From positions 8,370,001 through 8,434,000 of the forward strand of contig JAPNXP010000002.1 in assembly GCA_028753945.1 (NCBI GenBank): 64,000 bases of DNA, written 5' to 3'. Both the position numbers and the translations under genes were made by a program. The stretch comes from Hexactinellida sp. DTS-2022 (Eukaryota > Porifera > Hexactinellida). Of the stretch, positions 14,861-64,000 are shown piece after piece. Each line of letters starts with the position of its first letter. The stretch's first letter is position 1. The notes below the pieces were generated by a model that was given only the letters and a program-made list of their open reading frames with translations, searched no databases and was not told the DNA's origin.

Positions 14861-16358
14861 CAAACAACAACAAAATCAGTTTTTTGCTATAAGACATCTC
14901 AATATAAATTGTTTCTTTGTTGGGTCATTCAAGTTACGATATATGCTAGCACAACCTTTATCGTATAATCAGCGAATAATAAGTTGCTTAAGGGATGTTG
15001 ACTAATATAGATATAAGATTCAAATTCACATAAGTGTGAAAGTGTCACTATTGAAAATCTAAAAATACACTAAACGGTGAAAAGGATATAAACAATAATA
15101 ATTTGTATTCATACATTCAAGCTTCTAGCACGATAATAACATTTGTAGATGCTTCAAAATTGAGGTTTACATAAAACGATAAGTTGACATGAGAAGATTA
15201 GAATATACAAATTCTGATATAAGATTTGAATACCACATGGTCGAATTACAATAGCTGCTTATTTTCTAACCATTGCGATTATTTTCTACTGAAGGGTGTC
15301 CACGCATGGAAATATATCGGAAATCACCTTAAAAACATAACATAATCCGATTTTTCTTTTTTGGGCCTAGCAATTCAAAACGACAATATCTAACATTCGT
15401 ACATGGTTTTGAGACTTTTACAAGCGTATTTTCTTAGTTATGATCTATTTTGGACAGCGGTTCACTGGTTTCACCACTTAGATCGATCCAAGTACTCTAT
15501 ATCTCAACAATGGTATGAATGGTGATATCATTACTCTATCCAAGCAATAACTGACGAAAATAATTAACAATTGATCAAAAAAATAATAAAAAAGTGAAAA
15601 TCTGAACCTTTATGGCCTATAATCTCAAACAAGGGTACGTTTTCTGCTCAATTTTCTTTCTCAGACACCCGAGGTGCTACAAACAAAATCTACGTCTCAA
15701 AGTACTCGCAATACCCGACTTGCCATCCGTCAATAATACATTTCGTGACCCTAACACGCACCGTTTTCAAAATGATCCACATATGGGCATACAATGTGAC
15801 CATTTTTGATGACGCAGCAAATTTCTTCTCTCCTAAAGTATATACTCGAGAGCTTAGCTCTAAACTTCTATTCACATCTATAACCCATTACAAACTCATT
15901 GGAACAACTAACGAGACAAGTGACCAAATGGTTACTCGTCTTCTAATTCACATGCCCATATATGGATGTGCCATTTGAGTGATGTGACCATAAACCTCGA
16001 AATTAATTAATATGCGAGAGCGTAGCTCTAAGTTCCTAGAGTTATCAATATTCTATTTCAAGATTTATGGTAAAGTTCAATATGGTATAAAACAATTTTC
16101 CACATGATTACAACCGCTCCGTGCCATTTTTCTGGGAATATTTTTAAAGACCAGATGCCGGACTAAATGCCGGACTATTTTGAGAAAAATACGAAAGATT
16201 AAGGCTTGAAAATTTGTATACATATTAATTAATACTTAACTCAAGATTGACCAGTTTTTTCACCCGATAATCAAGCAATTATCACAGATTAGTAGGCCAA
16301 TTATTATTAAACTTTCAGAAAGTATAGACCTTACTGACTCCGCTGCCTTCAGAATTAA

Positions 16359-17553
16359 GGTTCAGGTATACTCTACAAATTTCGAATATTTTGATAAAAT
16401 CCAAATCATTGTCTATTTCTCTTTTATTGCATTTTGGGATTGTATTGATACCAATGAGTACTCTCAAGAGATTTCTAAGAAAAATTCCTATTATTTTTCC
16501 AGTTTGACACACTTTGGTCACCTCAATTTAGGAATAATTGCTGTAAATTTTTTTTCAAAAGCCGCTATCTCAAAACTAACATTTTCAGAATTGCGGAAGC
16601 AGTCATTTTGTCAATTTTGGTAGTAGAATCAAAAACTCAACAGTTTCGGAGAGATCTCGTAAAGATACAACTTTTCAGTCCTGCGATTTACCCTAATATG
16701 AATAGTTCATCAGTTTTTTGTATTTTGGATAAGGAAAATATTCATTTGAAAATCGACATCACATAAAAGTATTTGAAATCCAGAAAAATGTAGATATTCA
16801 CAATTCCTGTACTCAAAAGTTATATTACATCCAGCTAAACACATTTTATCAATAATATTCTTGGTATTGTTTATCTTTTCTGATTGATTAATTCCGCAAA
16901 AATGGTAAAATTACAAAAAAGATTTTTCCTCTATTAGTTTATTTGCCAATATTATTGTATTTTTGGCATCCTGAGGATCAAGTAAATCCGCTGTAAAAAA
17001 ATTAATTCATTCGGGTAAATACTTATGGTAGAAGTACTCTAGAGCAGTGTTTCTCAAACTTTTTTAGTACAGCGCCCCCCTGTCAACAATTACCCTCGAT
17101 ACCGCCCCCCCCCTCCATAAAGTATTAATATTACATTTTGTATTTGTTTAACAAATCCGTATTTGATTTAATGAATCAGCACTATAGTCTACATTTCTTT
17201 TACTATTCATTTATTCGATCGAGTTTATCAATTATATTCGTTTAGGTTTGTGCGTATTTATATTGAAATTATAGAGAGGACTGGCTTTCGTTAATCAATA
17301 CAATAGTATAGTAATTACCACTGTCAAGGCTCTGATTCTTGCAGTTTTATATAGTATTTGTTAGTTACTTAATATTTATGAACATGTTATCGCTGTTTTT
17401 ACGTGAGATCGTATTTCTGTTTCGCGTTCTATAACCCCTTAGCGCCCCCCCAACGCCCCCTTCTGCATCGCCGCCCCCCAACAACATTTCAGCGCCCCCC
17501 AGGGGGCTCTACGGCCCACTTTGAGAAACACTGCTCTAGAGTATACCTGAACC
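16359..17553. mobile_element. Family F TTAA MITE, copy F2
   Basis: Termini GGTTCAGGTATACTCTA and TAGAGTATACCTGAACC, flanked by TTAA on both sides. It contains the nested hAT at 17045-17533; without it the length is 698 bp, identical to F3. Apparent frames in this family are not conserved as protein between copies. Confidence 0.9.
17045..17533. mobile_element. hAT MITE, 489 bp, TSD CTCTAGAG
   Basis: Termini CAGTGTTTCTCAAA and TTTGAGAAACACTG with the perfect 8-bp duplication CTCTAGAG (17037-17044 and 17534-17541). C-rich inner ends (GCGCCCCCC) are typical of this MITE type. The uninterrupted site is seen in other F copies. Confidence 0.95.
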
Positions 17554-18047
17554 TTAAATATTGGCTGATAGACGTCATTAATTGCTAACTGAGCTGAGGC
17601 AGACTAAAGAGTAGGCAAAATAGAAGTAGAGTATTGATTTAGAACATTCTAGAACAAGTAGAAGTAGTTACCGAATACATATAAAATGTGTTATACAGGA
17701 TAGACGCTCTTATAGTTATAATCAAAAGAATCTATACTTAGCCAAAATAATTTATTCTAGAAGCCTATTAATAGCTTATAACTTATGCTTTACCGGGGTT
17801 GTTTCAATTCTCCAATTGAAGTAATATAAGCACAATTCGAAATGCTTGTGAGATTAAACATTCCTGTGCGTGGACACCGTGAAATACAGTCGAATTCCCA
17901 TTTGTTCCACTTATACTACAAGTGGCACGTGGCAGGGACACGTATTCATGGATATTGGAAAAGAAATCTTCAAATCGAAAGTTTATGAAGTTTATAACTA
18001 TAGCAAGATATTTAAAGTCTTCCAAAGTAGGTTAAACAGCCGTTAAA

Positions 18048-37801: not shown

Positions 37802-38540
37802 GGGGCTCTCCCTTTTCAAATTTAGCATTTTCTTTGAAAAGATAGGTGAAAACGGCCCCCAATAATGAAGTGAGGGGCCATGTATATGCCATTTGTTCAT
37901 GCCAAAGCCAAAATCTAGGAACTTTGTTCATGATCTGTCTACACTGCTCAAATTTCACAAATATACTATTATAGGATGATAGGAAATTTAGAATTTTTAA
38001 CTTGATGTTACATTCTATAGATAACTGATTTGGAAGGAGAGCCCCCCTGGGATATAAGCGCTCCCCCTAGCGAAATAAGTGGGGGGGCGCGCCCCCCCGA
38101 GCCCCCCCCCCAAAACATCACTGCCTATATTGATTCAGCATAATTTGATGATGATTGTCATGAAGATGATCTTGACTACCAAATTGAAAATTCCAAAATA
38201 CCACACATTATATCACAAGTGGAACCGAATGACCTAGTGAGAGATTTGCGTTTAACAAAAAGCCAAAGTGAAATCCTAGCATCTCGTCTTCAAGGATGGA
38301 ATTTGTTGGAAGATGAAACAAAGGTGACCTTCTACCGCAAGCGAACTGCACATTTTAAAACTTATTTTTACATGAAGGGTGACCTTTGTAATTGCAACAA
38401 CATAAATAGTCATTTCAGTGCCTATATATTTACTAAGATGTTAGTGATTGGCGGTTGTTCATAGATGCTTCAAAGTACAGTATCAAGGGAGTGTTACTAC
38501 ACAATGGAAACATTTATCCATCTTTACCAATTGCTCATTC

Positions 38541-39930
38541 GGGTGTCCCTTATAGGGAAAAAATCGGAAATTTCGCTCCAAAAAACAACTTAAATTAATT
38601 TTTTTTTTTGTACCAAACACTGCCGAAGGACCAAAACTAACGTTTGTATATGGTTTTGAGCCACGTCCACACGTATTTTCAGAGTTATGATCTATTTTGT
38701 ACAGCGTATCACTGGTTTCAACACTTTGAACTATTATCAGTACTGTATTCCTCAACAATGGTAAGATTGGTGGTATCATTACTCTATCCTAGCAATCAAT
38801 GACGAAAATAAACAACAATTGATCAAAAAAAATTCGCAAAAAGTGAAAATCTAAACATTTATGGTCTATAATCTCATTCGAGGGTACGTTTTCTTGTCCA
38901 TTTTCTATCTCAGGTACCCGAGCAGCTAGAATCAACATATACGTCTCAAAATGCTCGCAATACCCAACTTCCTATACGTACATAATACATTTTGGGAGCC
39001 TAACACCCTCCGTTTTCAAAATGATCCCTATATGGGCATGTAATGTGCCCAATTTTGATGACACAGCAAAATTTATATCAACGAAAGTATAAACTCTAGA
39101 GTTTAGCTCTAACCATCTATTCACATCAATATCCTACTGCAAACTCATTGGAAGTACAAATGAGACTCATAACCAAATGGTCACTCTTCTATAAAATTAC
39201 ATACCCATATATGGAGGTGTCATTTCAGAAATGAAACCATGAACTTTGTAATTAAATAATGAGCTAGAGCTTAGTTCCAACTTCCTAGTAACATCATTAA
39301 TCCATTTTAAGTTAGATGGTATAGTTATCGAATACTACTTCATAAATTTAATCGTGCGGGGATTCTTTACGGTCTTTCTCTCAATATAATATAAATGCCG
39401 GTGTTTGGGGACTAATGTCACGGAGTGTGACGAAATCAAGATAGGTTAAGAGCTCAAATTTTTTCTACAAGTTTTATACCACTAAAATTTAAAAAGCATA
39501 GATTGTATAACCAAAAAACACCAAAATTCTACTAATAAGAGAGAAACAATCTCAAAATAAAAAAAACAATCAAAAAACCTTACCTTTAGACGCTCTCCCC
39601 TTCATATTCATTGATGGAATTTCGAAATCCGATGTTGTGGGTCTTTGGTTGGAAAGATTAGGCCTTTATATAGTTAAATTGAGCTAGAGAACATTCTAGA
39701 ACAATTCAGAAACTATATACAAGCTTGACACTATCTATGTTATATTGAATAGACGCACATAACTGCATATTAAAAGAATCCATACCTAGACAAAACAATT
39801 CCATATTCACTTGAATGAATAAATTCTTCGCTATTTTTATCCAGACCAAGTTCTGAGGGTACTTAGAAGTATTCAGAGAATCTATAGACATGTTCTGTAG
39901 TGATTTATCAGTTTGCTATAAGGGATACCC
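38541..39930. mobile_element. Family D non-autonomous copy (D3, 1390 bp) with 17-bp flanking duplication
   Basis: Left end GGGTGTCCCTTATAG and right end CTATAAGGGATACCC are inverted repeats (one mismatch in 15). The flanks carry a perfect 17-bp direct repeat, TTACCAATTGCTCATTC (38524-38540 and 39931-39947). The intact paralogous gene near 54620 has only one copy of this stretch, so the duplication arose with the insertion or later. Both ends match the long D copy: 38541-38580 corresponds to its 53460-53499 end and 39290-39930 to its 48795-49440 end, inverted. It contains a CArG-bearing module (38990-39300). Non-coding. Confidence 0.85.
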
Positions 39931-39970
39931 TTACCAATTGCTCATTCAGTGACACTTAATGGCAATCTTA

Positions 39971-48403: not shown

Positions 48404-50323
48404 TTAAGGTTAAGGATGCTTAGGGTGGTATGGTTGGTTTTAGCGTCTTTGTAGATATTGAAGTGTAATTCTCCAATCTGCTCTGTAATTGCATAACTAA
48501 GCATTAAGGCTCGACCCGCACAGCTAAATTTTTACTCCCAATAAATCCATAGTTATATCAGTAAAAGCCTACACTATACTGATAACAAATCCACCATCAG
48601 AATTGATTTCGAATAATATTCACTCGAGTGATTGATTATAGTTCCATATTGCGTAATATTAAATTCCTATACCAGACTGAAATATGTGCGCCCTTGTAAC
48701 AATTAAACAACAGAAGATTAAGCGCTGATCCAGCATTATTTATTCAATAGATATACTAGTGTATAAGACATACCTCTAATACTCTGAAGTTTATCGGTGT
48801 CCCTTATAGGAAACTGATAAATCACTATAGAACATGTCTATAGATTCTCTGAATACTTCTAACTAACCTCGTAACTTGCTCAGCCTAAAAATAGCTAATA
48901 ATTTATTCATTCAAGTGCGTATTGAATTGTTTTGTCTAGGTATGGATTCTTTTAATATACAGTTATGCGCGTCTATTCAATATAACATAGATAGTGTCAA
49001 GCTACTATATAGTTTCTGGATTGTTCTAGAATGTTCTCTAGCTCAATTCAACTATATAAAAGCATAATCTTTCGAAGCGATTTCGAATAGAATGAGATTT
49101 CGGAATTTTATCAACGAATTTGAACGGGAGAGCGTCTGAAGGTAAGGATTTTTGATTGTTTGTTTTATTTTGAGATTGTTTCTCTAATATTAGTAGAACT
49201 TTGGTGTTTTTTGCTTATTCAATCACCCGTAGCTAAATGTTAGTGGTATAGAACCTGTAGAAAAAATTTGAGCTCTAAACCTATCTTGATTTCGTCACAC
49301 TCCGTGACATTAGCCCCCTATCTCCGCCTGATAATTATATTGAGATATTCTCGATCAAAGTTTACCCCCCCGGACCGAAAATCGATGGAATATATGACAT
49401 TTTCCGGACGCATGTTTCGATTGGAAATTGGCAACCAGGGATATCAAAGAGTTTCAAAATGTGTTGAATGGTAAATTTTATTTTGGAAAAAGACACTTTG
49501 AGACCTTGGAACAATAAATTGCACATGCCCATATATGGGGCAAGGTAATATGACGAATTGTGGGCGAAAATGGTTATTTTCAGAGTTACAGTGTTTTGAT
49601 GTATTAGTTGTGTATAGTATATCATGGATTGCATACAAAATGCCGTTGAGAGCTAAGCTCTAGCTCAACGGAATCAAAAGTTAGCAAACACTTTTTAGTT
49701 TCTGTTATGACCATATATGGGAGACAAACGCGCATATTGTCAATTTTGGAGATACAACATTTTTGAGTATTATTGGGGTATAGTAATTCGATAATTTATA
49801 TTCTAAAACTGTCGAGATCTGAACTCTAGCACTTCCGCTTCGCCGCGTACTAGATGTCGAAAAATACGATTACGAGGATTTCCATATATGGTATTTGTGG
49901 TTATAAGTCAGTGGGATGTTGTGATTTACACTTCAAAAATTTTATATATTGTCTAAGGAAAATTTGCTTTCCGAAAATTTGAAATGCTAAGCTCTAGGAC
50001 AAGAATTCAAAATGACCATATACGGAAAACTACTCGAAATAAGCGTTTTTGAAGACATTTTGAATTAGCGACACATATGAAATCATATATTCTAATTATT
50101 TTCATAATATAGTTCTAGACGATAAAACTTATATTTCTCTTGAAACAATGGATATTTATAAATTTTGTTGCATAATTGGCTTTTTTCGAACTTTCTAAGA
50201 TTTTGAATTGAATTATAAGATTAGGAAGTTGTCTAGAATTATGTTTTTGGTATGTGGGAACTATCAGGGTCCATATTTACTGCCTATTTTTCATTATAGG
50301 TCAGTTTTACTACTATACATACA

Positions 50324-52693
50324 TCAATTTATACTTTTACACTCTTCACAGAAAAACAATTCTGGCAATTTCCTGTTATTTTTGATTCCTACGCAGCTGG
50401 AGTGGAACCAGTCCTCGCACATATGGCAACAGACCCAGCGATCAAACTCTCGCGTTGTACGTATAGGGCATTCCCTCAGGTTACACTCGCAGCAGACACT
50501 ATCACTCTCGTCGCCACTAGACTGTACCTCGGAGCCGAACTTCCCTGAGGAATAGACGGCCTTGTTGAGACGTTTTCCGGTGGAGGAGACAGGCTTATCT
50601 CGACGCCTTCTTGAGGTTTCAGCCAATTTTGTTTGTGTTACTATTTGCCTTCTACGGCGCTTATGTGTTTCTCTTATACGACGCACTCTAGCCTGGTTTC
50701 TTCGGCGATCGCGACGATACAAGTAAGTAATAGTTTCATAACTAGGCGTGAGTCTGAGTTCCTTCATGAGGACAGAATAGGACAACGACCCTTCATTGAA
50801 GGCCAGGACCGCCGTTGCCGTACTGGCTACAAGGGACTTGTGTCCCACTCTCTTGACCTTGGGTGCGTTGTGCCACAACATATTGTGTAAACTTTCATTG
50901 CTATTCTGTGTCTTCCCTAGGGTGATAGTTTTACAAAAGGAAAGACTGGCGAAGATCAGAAATATCTCCGCAGTCCGACTGGACTCCGCCGGGGTTAGAA
51001 ATGGTTCTCTGGTAACTGGGAATGGTAAGGAACTGTCCTCCAGATGCTTTGCGACTAATTTCCTGAAGTAGCACCATGAAGTTGAACCCTCCGGGCAATT
51101 ATCGTGCTTTTCATTCGTGTGTAGGAGAAGGACCTGCAGGGCTTCATGGATTTCCAGAGGACTTTCACCCCGGTGCTGGACTATTACCAGAGCGTAGAGG
51201 TGAGCTATTCTATCAGCTTTCCCTTCTGGTAAGCCTTTGAAGGTTTTAGACTTTTTACGCAAGTTCCTTTTTACGCGCTTCTGAACGTGTCCGAGACACT
51301 CTTCCTTCCTAACCGTTGTTAGGCCATTATAGGGATCTGACTTTACTAAATTCTTATAGGAAGAAGAATCTCCATCACCGATATAAGTCTCGTACACCAA
51401 ACTATGACTGGATACTGACCTCTTCCAAATTTCGACAGCGGCCGAGCTCTCCATGGATTGAGAGGAACCAGAGTAATTCGCTGTACAGAAAGGTTTATGA
51501 GTACTCCAATATTCCTCATACTCTTCCGGGTTATTCTCCTTTCTCTCTTCAGGCCAGTTGGAGCAAAGGTAACATACTCTGTCGTAGAGTTGATAATCTA
51601 GTACTTTCCCGAATTCCGAATCAATAGCAGCTGCGAATCCTTGATTCGAAAAATGCCCTCTACGATGCCACGATGCGTCGAAGCTTACAGTACAAGCCCG
51701 AAGGTTTTCTGGCAGAAGATCGGTTGCATGAGAAGAAGAATGGACCTGGTTGGCTGCTAATTCCATTGACTTCGATACAACTCGTGTGGTTGAGTCAACG
51801 AAGTTTTTTAGGTGTCTCTTGGAGATTGTACTGGCCGGAACTTTCAGATCCAGGAGACTGCACGTTTGCCGAAAGTCTTCCCAGCTTTGTGATGTCGTGT
51901 GTACTGCCAACATCGAACGTAAGTTTAGGTCGCTTTGGCCTCGTTTACGAATTTTCTTATTGTTTACACACTTATCTGCAGTTACTCCAATTGGCAGAGA
52001 CGCTGGGAATTCCGCGACAACATTATGACAGTAGTCACATTTTATAAGTAGGAATTTTTGTAGGCCGTCCTCTATAAGTTGCTCATATAACCGTATCTTT
52101 CCTTTACAGGTCTTATCCACGCAGCTCAGAAGAGAAAACACGTGAGTGAGAATATATAGATTCACAATCTGGTTACCGGTTGCAAGTGAAACATTTTTCG
52201 TATATTCCAGACCTTCCGAACAAAGTTTGATATTGGTCACCCTTGTCTCCTTTTCAAAATGAATGTCTTTGTATAGGGACGAAGCTGGGCGAACGAATTT
52301 GACAGCCTCTCTTCCAGGATCAATAGAGCTGCGCAACACGAAAGGTGTGACTCCTTTCTTGAAACCGAATATTTTACGTTTCATTATTCTCTTCCTCTTA
52401 GGTTTAGGCGTTGTAAATGACTGATCGTCTGAGGTTTGTGACGACAAGCCGACGTAAGAGAAAGCAGCCCCCAATGACGTCCCTGGACTAGCCGGAGTTG
52501 TTGGTGTTGAGGGACCTGTCGGAGTATCGGTGTACTCAGATTCGCTGAGCTCAGATATGCTTGACGACGAGGTGTCAGAATCAAATGGAGTAGGGTTCAA
52601 TATGATGGGTAGGTCTGCTGGCCTAAAGGTCTCTGTTGGTTCGGGAATATCTTCGTCCGAAAAAGTCTCATAATCAATATCAAATGATGCCAT
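50324..52693 (-). CDS. Mutator-like DDE transposase with C-terminal PHD finger
   Basis: An uninterrupted 789-residue protein, taking the ATG at 52693 (ATAATGG context) rather than the TTG four codons upstream. Layout (about): acidic Ser/Thr/Pro-rich tail 1-95; basic KPKRKRIMKRK at 97-107, a likely nuclear signal; zinc-ribbon-like C-x4-C and C-x2-C at 191-222; transposase core 330-660 with VSFDASWHRRG (first Asp about 339), YIGDGDSSSY (second Asp about 440) and SNESLHNMLW (Glu about 600); Arg-rich stretch 660-700; PHD finger 734-785 with the Cys4-His-Cys3 pattern (CCECN, CCHMCEDWFHSSC, FFCEEC). The core matches the animal Mutator-like transposase type (GTW/ASWxxRG...GDGDS). PHD fingers read histone tails and could guide integration. 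It lies in family D, whose termini it probably cuts. No stop or frameshift; expression and activity unknown. Confidence 0.8.
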   Translation of the reverse strand: MASFDIDYETFSDEDIPEPTETFRPADLPIILNPTPFDSDTSSSSISELSESEYTDTPTGPSTPTTPASPGTSLGAAFSYVGLSSQTSDDQSFTTPKPKRKRIMKRKIFGFKKGVTPFVLRSSIDPGREAVKFVRPASSLYKDIHFEKETRVTNIKLCSEGLEYTKNVSLATGNQIVNLYILTHVFSLLSCVDKTCKGKIRLYEQLIEDGLQKFLLIKCDYCHNVVAEFPASLPIGVTADKCVNNKKIRKRGQSDLNLRSMLAVHTTSQSWEDFRQTCSLLDLKVPASTISKRHLKNFVDSTTRVVSKSMELAANQVHSSSHATDLLPENLRACTVSFDASWHRRGHFSNQGFAAAIDSEFGKVLDYQLYDRVCYLCSNWPEERKENNPEEYEEYWSTHKPFCTANYSGSSQSMESSAAVEIWKRSVSSHSLVYETYIGDGDSSSYKNLVKSDPYNGLTTVRKEECLGHVQKRVKRNLRKKSKTFKGLPEGKADRIAHLYALVIVQHRGESPLEIHEALQVLLLHTNEKHDNCPEGSTSWCYFRKLVAKHLEDSSLPFPVTREPFLTPAESSRTAEIFLIFASLSFCKTITLGKTQNSNESLHNMLWHNAPKVKRVGHKSLVASTATAVLAFNEGSLSYSVLMKELRLTPSYETITYLYRRDRRRNQARVRRIRETHKRRRRQIVTQTKLAETSRRRRDKPVSSTGKRLNKAVYSSGKFGSEVQSSGDESDSVCCECNLRECPIRTTREFDRWVCCHMCEDWFHSSCVGIKNNRKLPELFFCEECKSIN

Positions 52694-52800
52694 TATATCA
52701 AACAAGGAACGTTTTCTTTCAGTTGTCCAATTTTATTAGTGGTGTACTTTAGAACACTATTTATACTTTCCAATTATCGAGTGTAGTTTCACATATATTA

Positions 52801-53060
52801 TTATGGCATGCATTCAAATATCATTACTGTAGATTCGTTGCTCAGTTCAAATTTCAAAGTGGTTTCAAATATCATTATTACAAAGTGGTTGCTCAGTTCA
52901 AATTTCAAAGTGGTTTCAAATATCATTATTACAAAGTGGTTGCTCAGTTCAAATTTCAAAGTGGTTTCAAATATCATTATTACAAAGTGGCTGCTTATTT
53001 CAAATTGAAAAGTGGTTTCAAATATCATTATTATATAGTGTTTGCAAAGTGATTTCATAG
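52801..53060. repeat. 51-bp tandem repeats upstream of the transposase
   Basis: The unit CAAATTTCAAAGTGGTTTCA... recurs with starts at 52848, 52899, 52950 and 53001 (exact 51-bp step), with decayed units on both sides. They lie between the transposase start and the family D terminus. The period is divisible by three, so repetitive frames on both strands are artefacts. Confidence 0.9.
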
Positions 53061-53773
53061 CATTATTGTATAGCAGTTATAAATATAGAATTTCTGAAAT
53101 AGTTTCAAATAACACTATAGTTGTGTGGTTACTAAAATAGATTTTCTAAAGTGTTTTCAAATATCATTTAGTTTTGTGGTTGCTAGGTTGTGAATTCAAA
53201 ACGATTGCAAAGATTGTTCGTATAAAACTGTTGTATTTTCTAAATATATTTTTTATTGACAAAGAATACATTCATATTATTCAGACTACATTCTGTGAAA
53301 TTTTTGAACTAATCGGAATGTAATATTATTTTATCCTTATAAGGAGGTGTCAAAAGGTCATAAAAATGGTGATTGAAGGGTGTAAACCGAAATTTCGGAC
53401 GGGGGCAATGAAACTAGGCTTATTTTGCTCATATTTTAATATAAAAAGTTTTGAACGGGGAAATTAATATTTTCGGCGATTTTCTTATAAGGGACACCGT
53501 TATGCATATTCAATGAATTACACTGGTCAACAACATTTTCTTGGCTAATAAGTTGAGACTATTTCTTGGGTATATTGGGGTCACTGAGTTCGAAAATGGG
53601 ACTAATTCCTGTCAATTGGCTCTACTTTTTAAAATATTGTAAATTATGTGTTTTTCAATATCCGTGAATTTGTGTTCACTGATACTATATAGTATGTATG
53701 TATTGCCTTATAACTAGAATTGAACGGACGTAATAAGCAGATAATTTAAGAAATAATATGATCTGAATACTTA

Positions 53774-55477
53774 TCAATCATGAACGAACGTTCTCTTATA
53801 CGATTTCCTCTTGTGAGGTTCCTGGGCGCAATCACGCATAAGGCTCCAGCAGTAATCTGACAACATGTGAGCGTCCCATCGTCCTTGGTACCGTTCCTCC
53901 ATAGTCCTGATGTCTTGGTGGAATCGCTCGCCCTGTTCTTCGCTTAAATCACCAAGATTTTCAGGGAATCTCTCTAAATGGCTATAGAGGTAGTGAAGTT
54001 TTATGCTCATTCTGGTTCCCAGACTGTGGAAGTTCTTGAGCATGTCTTCGACCAGATTCTGGTAGTTAGCTACTTTGGTGTTGCCTAAAAGTCCCTTTAC
54101 AACATCGACAAAGGAATACCACGCGGCAGCCTCAACCCCAGTCATATGTGAAGCGAAATCTACATCTTTTATCAGTTTTCTGATTTGTGGCCCATCAAAA
54201 ATTCCTGCCTTAAGTTTTTCGCTACTCAGACCAGGAAACACTGAGCAGAGGTAGCTGAAACAGTTACCATCTTTGTTCAATGCCTTTACGAATTGTTTCA
54301 TCAGCCCCAACTTGATATGGAGTGGGGGTAGGATTATACGGTCACGACTAACTAGGGGCTCGTTAACGATATTCTTTTCCCCGACGGAGAGCTCTTGGCG
54401 AACGGGCCAGTTCTTCTTTTCCCAGTGCACCTCATCCGCTCTGCTGTCCCACAAACAAAGAAAGCATGGGTATTTAGTGTAACCACTTTGCTGTCCTAAC
54501 AGAATGTTGACCATCTTCAAGTCTACACACGCGATCCAGTTATGTTCATCATAACACAGCTTTTGTAGGACCATCTTTATAGTTGCGTAGTGCTCTTTCA
54601 AGATTACTGAATGGCCGATTGGAACAGAGGCAAACTTGTTACCGTTATGCAGCAACACACACTTTAGACTCCGTTTAGAGCTGTCGATAAATAAACGCCA
54701 CTCATTCGGATTGTATTGTGACAGTCCTATTGCTGAGAGAAGTCCTGGGATGTTATTAAAAAACACGAAATCGCCTTCTTCACTGAAATAGCGAATAAGT
54801 TCTTCGTCTCTGCGTCGGTAATAAGTTATCCTGGCTTCATTGTGGAGAACATGGTGTTCACTGAGACGGGAAGCCAGGATCTCTGAAGCATCTTTCGATA
54901 GGCCTAAGTCTCTCACTAAGTCGTTGAGCTGCCCCTGGGTGAAAGGCTCCGCTTTAGTTATCTGTAAAGACTCGATACAGCTATTGTTGCTGTAAGTGCT
55001 GTCCGACGAATCATCAATTGCCTCATTCGCAGTATCAAGAACTTGATCAGGAAAGGACTTAAAAATAGGCACCTGAATTTCGCTGCAATGTGGAATTGGC
55101 CGTCTTGCAGAATCGATGTCAGGATATTGCCACGAATTCTTTTTCTGTCGGTTCCATCCAGACATGTTAACCATGCAGAAGTAACAGTCATCGTGATGGT
55201 TCTTGGGCTCTCGCCAAACCATTGGAACACCGAACTTCATGGATTTGGCTTTTCCTTGGGTCCATAAGCGGAGGGTTTCTGTACAATACTTGCACACTTT
55301 GTGAGGGCTCCATGACTTATCCTGATCGCCTAACTTCATACCAAAGTAGGCCTGATAAGCTTTTTTGGTGACATCTCTAACATTAAAACGATATTCCTTT
55401 GCCATATATTCACCACAAATATAGCAAAAGACATCAGGATCATTGAGGCAACAACGTCTAATGCGCTTTGAATCCAT
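53774..55477 (-). CDS. Intact 567-residue zinc-finger protein of unknown function, repeat-family gene
   Basis: Complete from ATG (55477) to stop. Residues 10-101 are Cys/His-rich: CYICG at 18-22, HKVCKYC at 59-65 and CYFC at 98-101, suggesting zinc binding. Residues 185-205 (NDLVRDLGLSKDASEILASRL) form a conserved block also present in the pseudogene at 38219. From 260 on, acidic residues sit in hydrophobic strands: LFIDSS (Asp264), ACVDLKMVNILLGQQSG (Asp319) followed by CFLC, then LPPLHIKLGLMKQF and EEQGERFHQDI (Glu517). This could be an RNase H-like D-D-E arrangement; that is inference. I recall similar multicopy genes in invertebrate genomes but have no established function. It lies inside composite C3, with a second, broken copy at 36015-39975. 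Confidence 0.75.
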   Translation of the reverse strand: MDSKRIRRCCLNDPDVFCYICGEYMAKEYRFNVRDVTKKAYQAYFGMKLGDQDKSWSPHKVCKYCTETLRLWTQGKAKSMKFGVPMVWREPKNHHDDCYFCMVNMSGWNRQKKNSWQYPDIDSARRPIPHCSEIQVPIFKSFPDQVLDTANEAIDDSSDSTYSNNSCIESLQITKAEPFTQGQLNDLVRDLGLSKDASEILASRLSEHHVLHNEARITYYRRRDEELIRYFSEEGDFVFFNNIPGLLSAIGLSQYNPNEWRLFIDSSKRSLKCVLLHNGNKFASVPIGHSVILKEHYATIKMVLQKLCYDEHNWIACVDLKMVNILLGQQSGYTKYPCFLCLWDSRADEVHWEKKNWPVRQELSVGEKNIVNEPLVSRDRIILPPLHIKLGLMKQFVKALNKDGNCFSYLCSVFPGLSSEKLKAGIFDGPQIRKLIKDVDFASHMTGVEAAAWYSFVDVVKGLLGNTKVANYQNLVEDMLKNFHSLGTRMSIKLHYLYSHLERFPENLGDLSEEQGERFHQDIRTMEERYQGRWDAHMLSDYCWSLMRDCAQEPHKRKSYKRTFVHD

Positions 55478-57710: not shown

Positions 57711-58256
57711 CAGTCTACTCCGCTTAATTGGGACACGTTTGTTCCAGGCCTTTTGTCCCAATTAAGCGGAGATCCCAATTAACCGAAAAACCATTGTAAA
57801 GTGGTGATTTACCTGTGATTTACACAAATTTTGGTTTTAAACCTGTTACAACAATTCCTCCAAAGCCAGCGGGCCCTTGATTCTTCTCTAACCCATATAA
57901 TGAGCATTAATATTCTCAGGACCGTTTGATATATCCCTGAACCACAAGGTCATAATCTCTGGTAAATTTCGATATCATGGAAATCAATAAGAAATAGACA
58001 ATATTAGATATTTTGTCCTTCCTTCATCAGTATTGGCAAAGATTATTAGAATTCGTTCTGATCAATATGAATTTTCTATTGAGCGAGCACCAATTTTGAA
58101 CCAAATTTATTTAGTTTGTCCCGATTAAGCGGAGTTTTTCCCGATTAACCGAAGATTTAGTAATAGCTTCTAACGAAAGGATTCTGTTCTTGGGGCGTTG
58201 TCCCAATTAAGCGGCTGTCCCGATTAACCGGTGTCCCAATTAAGCGGAGTACACTG
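57711..58256. mobile_element. pogo-like MITE, TA-flanked (546 bp)
   Basis: CAGTCTACTCCGCTTAATTG and CAATTAAGCGGAGTACACTG termini with TA outside both. TCCCAATTAAGCGGAG and TCCCGATTAACCGAAG variants recur inside. Copy B2 shows the uninterrupted target (GAACTATACCTG near 29409). Confidence 0.9.
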
Positions 58257-63110: not shown

Positions 63111-63689
63111 TAGATACATACTAGATTATACTATACCAGGCTTCCCGACTCCGGGATAATTACCCTCAAATGGGGTAATATGATGAATTTCGAAGGGTAA
63201 ATGGGGGTGATTAAATATATCAAAATATGTCATTATTAGTTCGATGGTCATTTTGAATACTTGTGATTGATTTTGCAGGTTTTTAATGTTTTATAATTAG
63301 CTTAACGCTACCTACGAGTACTATTTTTGCCAATGGTGTGGCTGGCTACAAAATCTCAAAAAAAAATTATTTCGTCTATAGACGCTTGATTAAGCCCCCA
63401 AGGATATGCAAAGGTCAAATGTACAATATCTCGACTAATTTGACCTCTATAAGTCGATATTTGGGGTGCTAAGTGGACTTTTTCAGTGGTTCAGCACTTT
63501 CAGATAGATTGTTTGCTGTAACTGACATGATATTTGGTGATTTTCCTTGAATATACCTGGCCCATTTGATAGTCTGTGCTAAAAACACCAAAATTGATAA
63601 AAAAATCATATAGAAAGAGAAAATTCGCAAAGTTAGGGTACATTATCTATCCTAGGGGTCCTATTTCTAACACCCCCCCTCTGAATACA
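63111..63689. other. No gene recognised
   Basis: AT-rich sequence with repeated GGGGTAAT/ATTACCC phrases near 63160-63210; otherwise nothing supported. Confidence 0.35.
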
Positions 63690-64000
63690 TTTCTCAGACT
63701 CCCGTGCACCTAGAATTAAAATGTACTAGTGAAAAAGCATCGCAATACACGACTTCCTATGCGTCCCTAATACTTTTTGTGACCCTAAGACGCCCCGTTT
63801 TTCAAATGACCATATATGGGCATGGATATGTGCCACATTTTGATGATTCAGCATTTTTGTATCTCATAAACTAGAGAAAGCAGAGCTTAGCTCTAATCGA
63901 TTATTCACATCAATATATCATGCATATATCATTGGAATAACAAATTGGACTATTTTCCAAATAGTTACCATGCTCAAGGAGCCCATGCCCATATATGGAG
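63690..64000. repeat. CArG-bearing repeat module, running off the window
   Basis: CCATATATGG at 63810-63819 and 63989-63998 bracket GCAGAGCTTAGCTCTAATC at about 63880, the same order as in the other modules. Continues past the window end. Confidence 0.8.

Follow-up and report, generated by a model that had tools for sequence, protein, structure and literature searches.

Which kind of transposon carries a transposase fused to a PHD finger, and how it chooses its insertion sites, are the questions raised by a 64,000-nucleotide stretch (hereafter the window) of the 112-Mb, 18-contig genome of Hexactinellida sp. DTS-2022 (assembly GCA_028753945.1, contig JAPNXP010000002.1, positions 8,370,001 to 8,434,000 of the forward strand). 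The window contains a transposon of 4705 bp (48795–53499) that has inverted termini, lies between the two copies of a 4-bp duplication, TTAT, and carries a single open gene. It belongs to a broad kind that is already known, and its four-base, TTAA-like insertion sites fit Kolobok better than Mutator, under which a preliminary description of this DNA had placed it. It is probably a DNA transposon of the Kolobok type that moves by cut and paste, with two additions reminiscent of Rehavkus, a C-terminal PHD finger and an internal minisatellite.

The limits of the element were set by its inverted arms and by the ends common to its genome copies, referred to here as clade A. The arms (48792–48813 and 53481–53502) are 22 nt long and 91% complementary; the outer 3 nt of each are flanking sequence, which leaves a terminal repeat of 19 nt, mismatched at one position, at 48795–48813 (+ strand, on the side of the gene's 3′ end) and 53481–53499 (− strand, on the side of its 5′ end). 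The target site duplication TTAT adjoins these repeats at 48791–48794 and 53500–53503, and the inverted termini previously noticed around the gene are confirmed. Clade A termini consist of C or G followed by GGTGTCCCTTATA; the window copy is among those that begin with CGGTG, and other copies begin with GGGTG. Four occurrences of the word CGGTGTCC were counted in the window, where 0.35 would be expected, and none of 100 shuffles gave four; two of these occurrences are the transposon's own ends, that at 17872 is, as read by eye, the end of a decayed relative (15294–17879), and that at 58229 showed no match to the family of the window transposon. Between the gene start and the right terminus lies a minisatellite with a unit of 51–52 bp (52813–53185), and related arrays were found at loci L012, L014 and L016.

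The gene (50324–52693, − strand) is indeed a single uninterrupted open reading frame (ORF) of 789 codons plus stop. Its product is matched by Pfam PF20700 “Mutator” (‘Mutator-like transposase’; E 7e-53) over residues 173–541 (51071–52177, − strand), a stretch that holds two of the proposed catalytic residues, D339 and D440, and three groups of Cys/His residues. The D-D-E candidates hold up, with D339, D440 (also D442) and E600 invariant in 12/12 aligned proteins; E600, the presumed catalytic glutamate of a TQNxNE motif, is encoded at 50894–50896 (− strand) and falls in helix 594–609 of the predicted fold. Equally invariant in the 12 proteins are C374, C377, H399 and C403 (CCHC after the first D), C466 and H469 (CxxH between the second D and E), and H525, H530, C533 and C541, a predicted zinc finger between CxxH and E with C at its third position. 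The single protein, read as a DDE transposase of RNase H fold to which three conserved Cys/His clusters and a PHD finger are added, would bind the GGTGTCC ends and excise the element.

Searches of the genome gave at least 36 DNA matches and at least 72 protein matches, which are counts of stretches, several of which can belong to one copy, and lower bounds. The termini flank other copies of the gene on both sides (L003, L004 and L005), in keeping with the preliminary description. Other close copies with open frames are L004 and L005 (protein 93% identical) and L012 (88%). A search for near-identical copies yielded the pair L004 and L005, which share 99.8% identity across 4,576 bp, have different flanks, each with a TTAA duplication, and carry an open gene; the clade A family has therefore moved recently. 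Recent activity, previously suggested for the window copy from its open gene, is accordingly supported for the family but not for this copy, whose nearest relative, L002, is 97% identical and contains stops. A scan of viral contigs for relatives returned 44 pattern matches, none of which was confirmed.

Target sites were compared in 29 of 37 tabulated copies, these being the ones with both terminal motifs. Eight without both motifs were dropped (L061/062, L067/068, L071/072, L085/086, L087/088, L089/090, L093/094 and L095/096), among which L085/086 has a 26-bp duplication and a partly lost left end, and five further places at which one end was seen were left out (L002 and L055–L058). An exact 4-bp duplication is present in 11/29 copies (five TTAA, two TTAT, two CTAA, one TTAG and one TTCA), and in a further 12 the two copies of the tetranucleotide differ by one or two bases. 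In L077/078 it is offset by one base, two copies have longer exact duplications (8 bp in L043 and 17 bp in a 1.39-kb element of the window), and three (L045, L049 and L050) have no clear duplication. Duplications of 9–11 bp were found in none of the 29 copies and one of 8 bp in a single copy. Insertion would take place through cuts staggered by 4 bp, at TTAA or a tetranucleotide resembling it.

TTAA also adjoins the ends of related families. At locus L014, whose protein is 55% identical to that of the window transposon, the ends are CGGTGTCC and are flanked by TTAA; a related minisatellite is present as well. Family B (L019–L022; protein 45–46% identical, termini CGCTACC) comprises four 3.6-kb copies that are 99.5–99.75% identical and all lie between TTAA; an empty repeat unit beside L021 is the sole empty site that we obtained. 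Exact family B termini adjoin TTAA in 45 of 48 cases, with no matches to the reversed control of the exact pattern, and at up to three mismatches there were 192 matches against one in the reversed control. Many shorter pairs of family B ends, approximately 1.4–1.65 kb apart, were also seen, and the start of one such element of about 1.4 kb, with CGCTACC termini and following TTAA, lies at 63306–64000 (+ strand) and continues past the end of the window. Clade C (L099–L101; protein 37% identical) is represented on three contigs (C11, C12 and C18) by copies 99.8–100% identical over 12.8 kb. This element (loci L099–L101 and L116–L123) is longer than 12.8 kb, and the one end reached reads TTAA/GGATTGAC, with TTAA in 3/3 copies; the side opposite this end carries a 169-bp satellite. 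In 13.9 kb read of the C11 copy, the only ORF of at least 100 aa is an 821-aa PHD-finger transposase gene.

Published systems are compared here from excerpts of the papers cited. The Kolobok superfamily (lineages P, E, D and 5 in PMC9587614) is described as having TTAA duplications, RR...YY termini, a C/DxxH motif, a zinc finger ahead of E and, for part of the lineages, a CCHC after the first D. The window transposon shares the 4-bp TTAA-type duplication, in relaxed form, as well as the CxxH between the second D and E, the predicted zinc finger before E with its conserved C, and the CCHC residues after the first D. There are also differences. In clade A the TTAA specificity is relaxed, 18/29 copies being without an exact 4-bp duplication; the window copy begins with CG, not RR; it has a C-terminal PHD finger, whereas the word PHD does not appear in the main text of PMC9587614; and no gene for an accessory nuclease or helicase was identified in it, the other short ORFs not having been searched. 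A literature search combining Kolobok, transposase and PHD finger found no paper, and neither did one on PF20700; what is published on Kolobok together with PHD includes fungal fusions of host genes and transposable elements.

Close to an even chance, and compatible with a Kolobok-type transposon, is that the element is Rehavkus in the strict sense, the published 9-bp duplication then not being valid for all members. According to PMC6446971, Rehavkus duplicates 9 bp of its target, and its single ORF, which includes a PHD finger, is accompanied by a minisatellite located ahead of the 3′ terminus; both the PHD finger and the internal minisatellite recur here. In addition, the 169-bp satellite in the >12.8-kb clade C element can be set beside the 164-bp repeat in the termini of the 9.5-kb Rehavkus-1_TC (PMC10218199). 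On the other hand, the exact duplications in clade A are mostly of 4 bp and TTAA-like, with none of 9 bp, the window minisatellite is on the 5′ side of the gene, and the likeness is one to published descriptions. The main text of PMC13359780, from the Rehavkus literature, does not contain the word PHD. We read the element as one that would work like Kolobok and is built like Rehavkus, since the published Kolobok features other than the termini were found and duplications of 9 bp, or of the 8–11 bp of Mutator-like elements, were not, apart from a single one of 8 bp; this assignment, which follows published descriptions, is provisional.

The 12 copies with mismatched flanks bear on how the ends are cut and joined. 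Together they have 20 differing positions, and at all 20 the element-proximal base is the TTAA base. This would be expected if the duplication were TA only, the element beginning with A and ending with T (ACGG...CCGT) and carrying no flank, which also explains the 12 copies with differing flanks, such as CTAA/TTAG. The direction count alone cannot separate this from carriage of the flank, because most copies have A/T beside the element. What does separate them is a coupling of the two flanks: in 7/7 cases in which the base adjoining the element is not that of TTAA, the corresponding base of the opposite flank is the same (permutation p 0.0004; 23 copies, with L043, L045, L049, L050, the window 1.39-kb element and L077/078 set aside). 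Furthermore, both flanks of L081/L082 read TTCA, which lacks TA, and both flanks of the decayed relative (15294–17879) read TGAA. We therefore consider the TA duplication unlikely; the mismatched flanks suggest a 4-bp stagger at TTAA-like sites and TTAA ends carried in by the element, with mismatches resolved either way. By analogy with piggyBac, which opens TTAA hairpins into 4-nt overhangs (PMC7351741), the element may take the TTAA of its former site along on its ends when it inserts elsewhere. The TTAA target and possible carriage of the flank on excised ends are shared with piggyBac, whereas no piggyBac Pfam model reached E 1 for the window protein; piggyBac-like folds were absent from the structure-match lists, which is uninformative either way. 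Literature searches found no paper on Kolobok transposase hairpins at TTAA and none on topic for non-TTAA piggyBac sites. When the 29 joined flank pairs were blasted against the retrieved loci and the window for clade A empty sites, no other place was found.

It is quite improbable that the transposon is a canonical Mutator-like element (MULE) whose target duplications are short by coincidence. Shared with this group are the name of the PF20700 model, the C/DxxH motif and a DDE-type fold, and L043 has its 8-bp duplication. By structure comparison the predicted fold is also near ISCth4, a transposase of the IS256 type, to which MULEs are related. Moreover, Repbase places Rehavkus, a published relative in architecture, under MuDR (PMC4455052). 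MULE duplications are, however, of 8–11 bp (PMC6446971), and apart from L043 none of the 29 copies has one; no other Pfam transposase model matched the protein at E up to 1; and the zinc-finger residues between the second D and E, which according to the Kolobok paper (PMC9587614) MuDR lacks, are invariant in all 12 aligned proteins. The ‘Mutator-like’ label, which comes from the name of the Pfam model, is thus weak, given the mostly 4-bp TTAA-like exact duplications and the invariant zinc-finger residues. The dN/dS (nonsynonymous to synonymous substitution rate ratio) of 0.18–0.20 between the window gene and three intact relatives, the L004/L005 pair being too close to measure, is purifying selection and would suit a host gene domesticated from a transposon, but the termini and target duplication around the gene, and three close open-frame relatives elsewhere, two of them 99.8% identical, make domestication highly improbable.

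The window transposon appears to have dependants. An element of 1,385 bp that shares its ends gave 46 genome matches, 31 of which cover at least 1,300 bp (window copy included). Two such 1.39-kb elements sharing both termini had been described in the window; just one complete copy was found (38541–39930), and the other matches are partial and approximately 70–80% identical. One end of this copy aligns with the window transposon over 551 bp (87%) and the other end in the terminal repeat only; it is therefore not a simple internal deletion of that transposon. The relation of master and dependent is plausible, in that the transposase may also mobilise 1.39-kb elements that retain the ends. Supported overall is the description of a DNA transposon whose gene for a PHD-finger transposase is open, together with non-coding elements sharing its ends. 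As the AACCACT word of the minisatellite has no matches in the window 1.39-kb element, we doubt that the minisatellite is required for movement. The decayed relative has the ends GGGTGTCCACGCA and CGGTGTCCACGCA, read from the sequence, is interrupted by other inserted sequence, and gave partial matches to the dependent element at 15332–16072 and 17641–17752.

It should be noted that the exact 17-bp duplication around the complete 1.39-kb element (38524–38540 and 39931–39947) is far longer than 4 bp, and that this element interrupts a stretch resembling a neighbouring gene. The latter, an open gene of 567 aa (53774–55477, − strand) 274 bp beyond the transposon, has no Pfam match at E 1; its relatives gave 86 genome matches, one of them 99% identical on contig C1, and because of these matches it appears to belong to a different repeat family. 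At the ends of contigs, 7/10 ends from 5/18 contigs (L107, L109–L111 and L113–L115) resemble, by eye, one satellite family; no simple telomere repeat was seen by eye in these ten ends, one of which is N in part.

The PHD finger noticed at the C-terminus (residues 734–785; 50339–50494, − strand) is borne out: its Pfam score of 19.9 bits is under the cut-off of 24, but the C4HC3 pattern is complete in the window protein and in 8 of the remaining 11 proteins of the alignment. Since clades A, B and C all include members with the finger, it probably has some function, whether steering, self-regulation or plain stability. The closest PHD sequences come from chromatin proteins, for example PHF8, PHF2 and MLL5, which makes histone-guided targeting, as first suggested from the fusion itself, a reasonable idea and no more; the finger may contact methylated histone H3. 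A bolder and doubtful proposal is that of a Kolobok-type lineage that reads the chromatin of active genes (methylated H3K4) through its PHD finger and carries its TTAA flank on hairpin or overhang ends, leaving donor bases at non-TTAA targets; in that case Rehavkus should be placed in this lineage instead of under Mutator.

The filing of PHD-finger elements under Mutator is called into question, and the mismatched target copies constitute a genomic footprint from which the chemistry of excision might be inferred. With open, recently moved copies of a PHD-finger transposon in one genome, the steering of a transposase by histone marks becomes testable.

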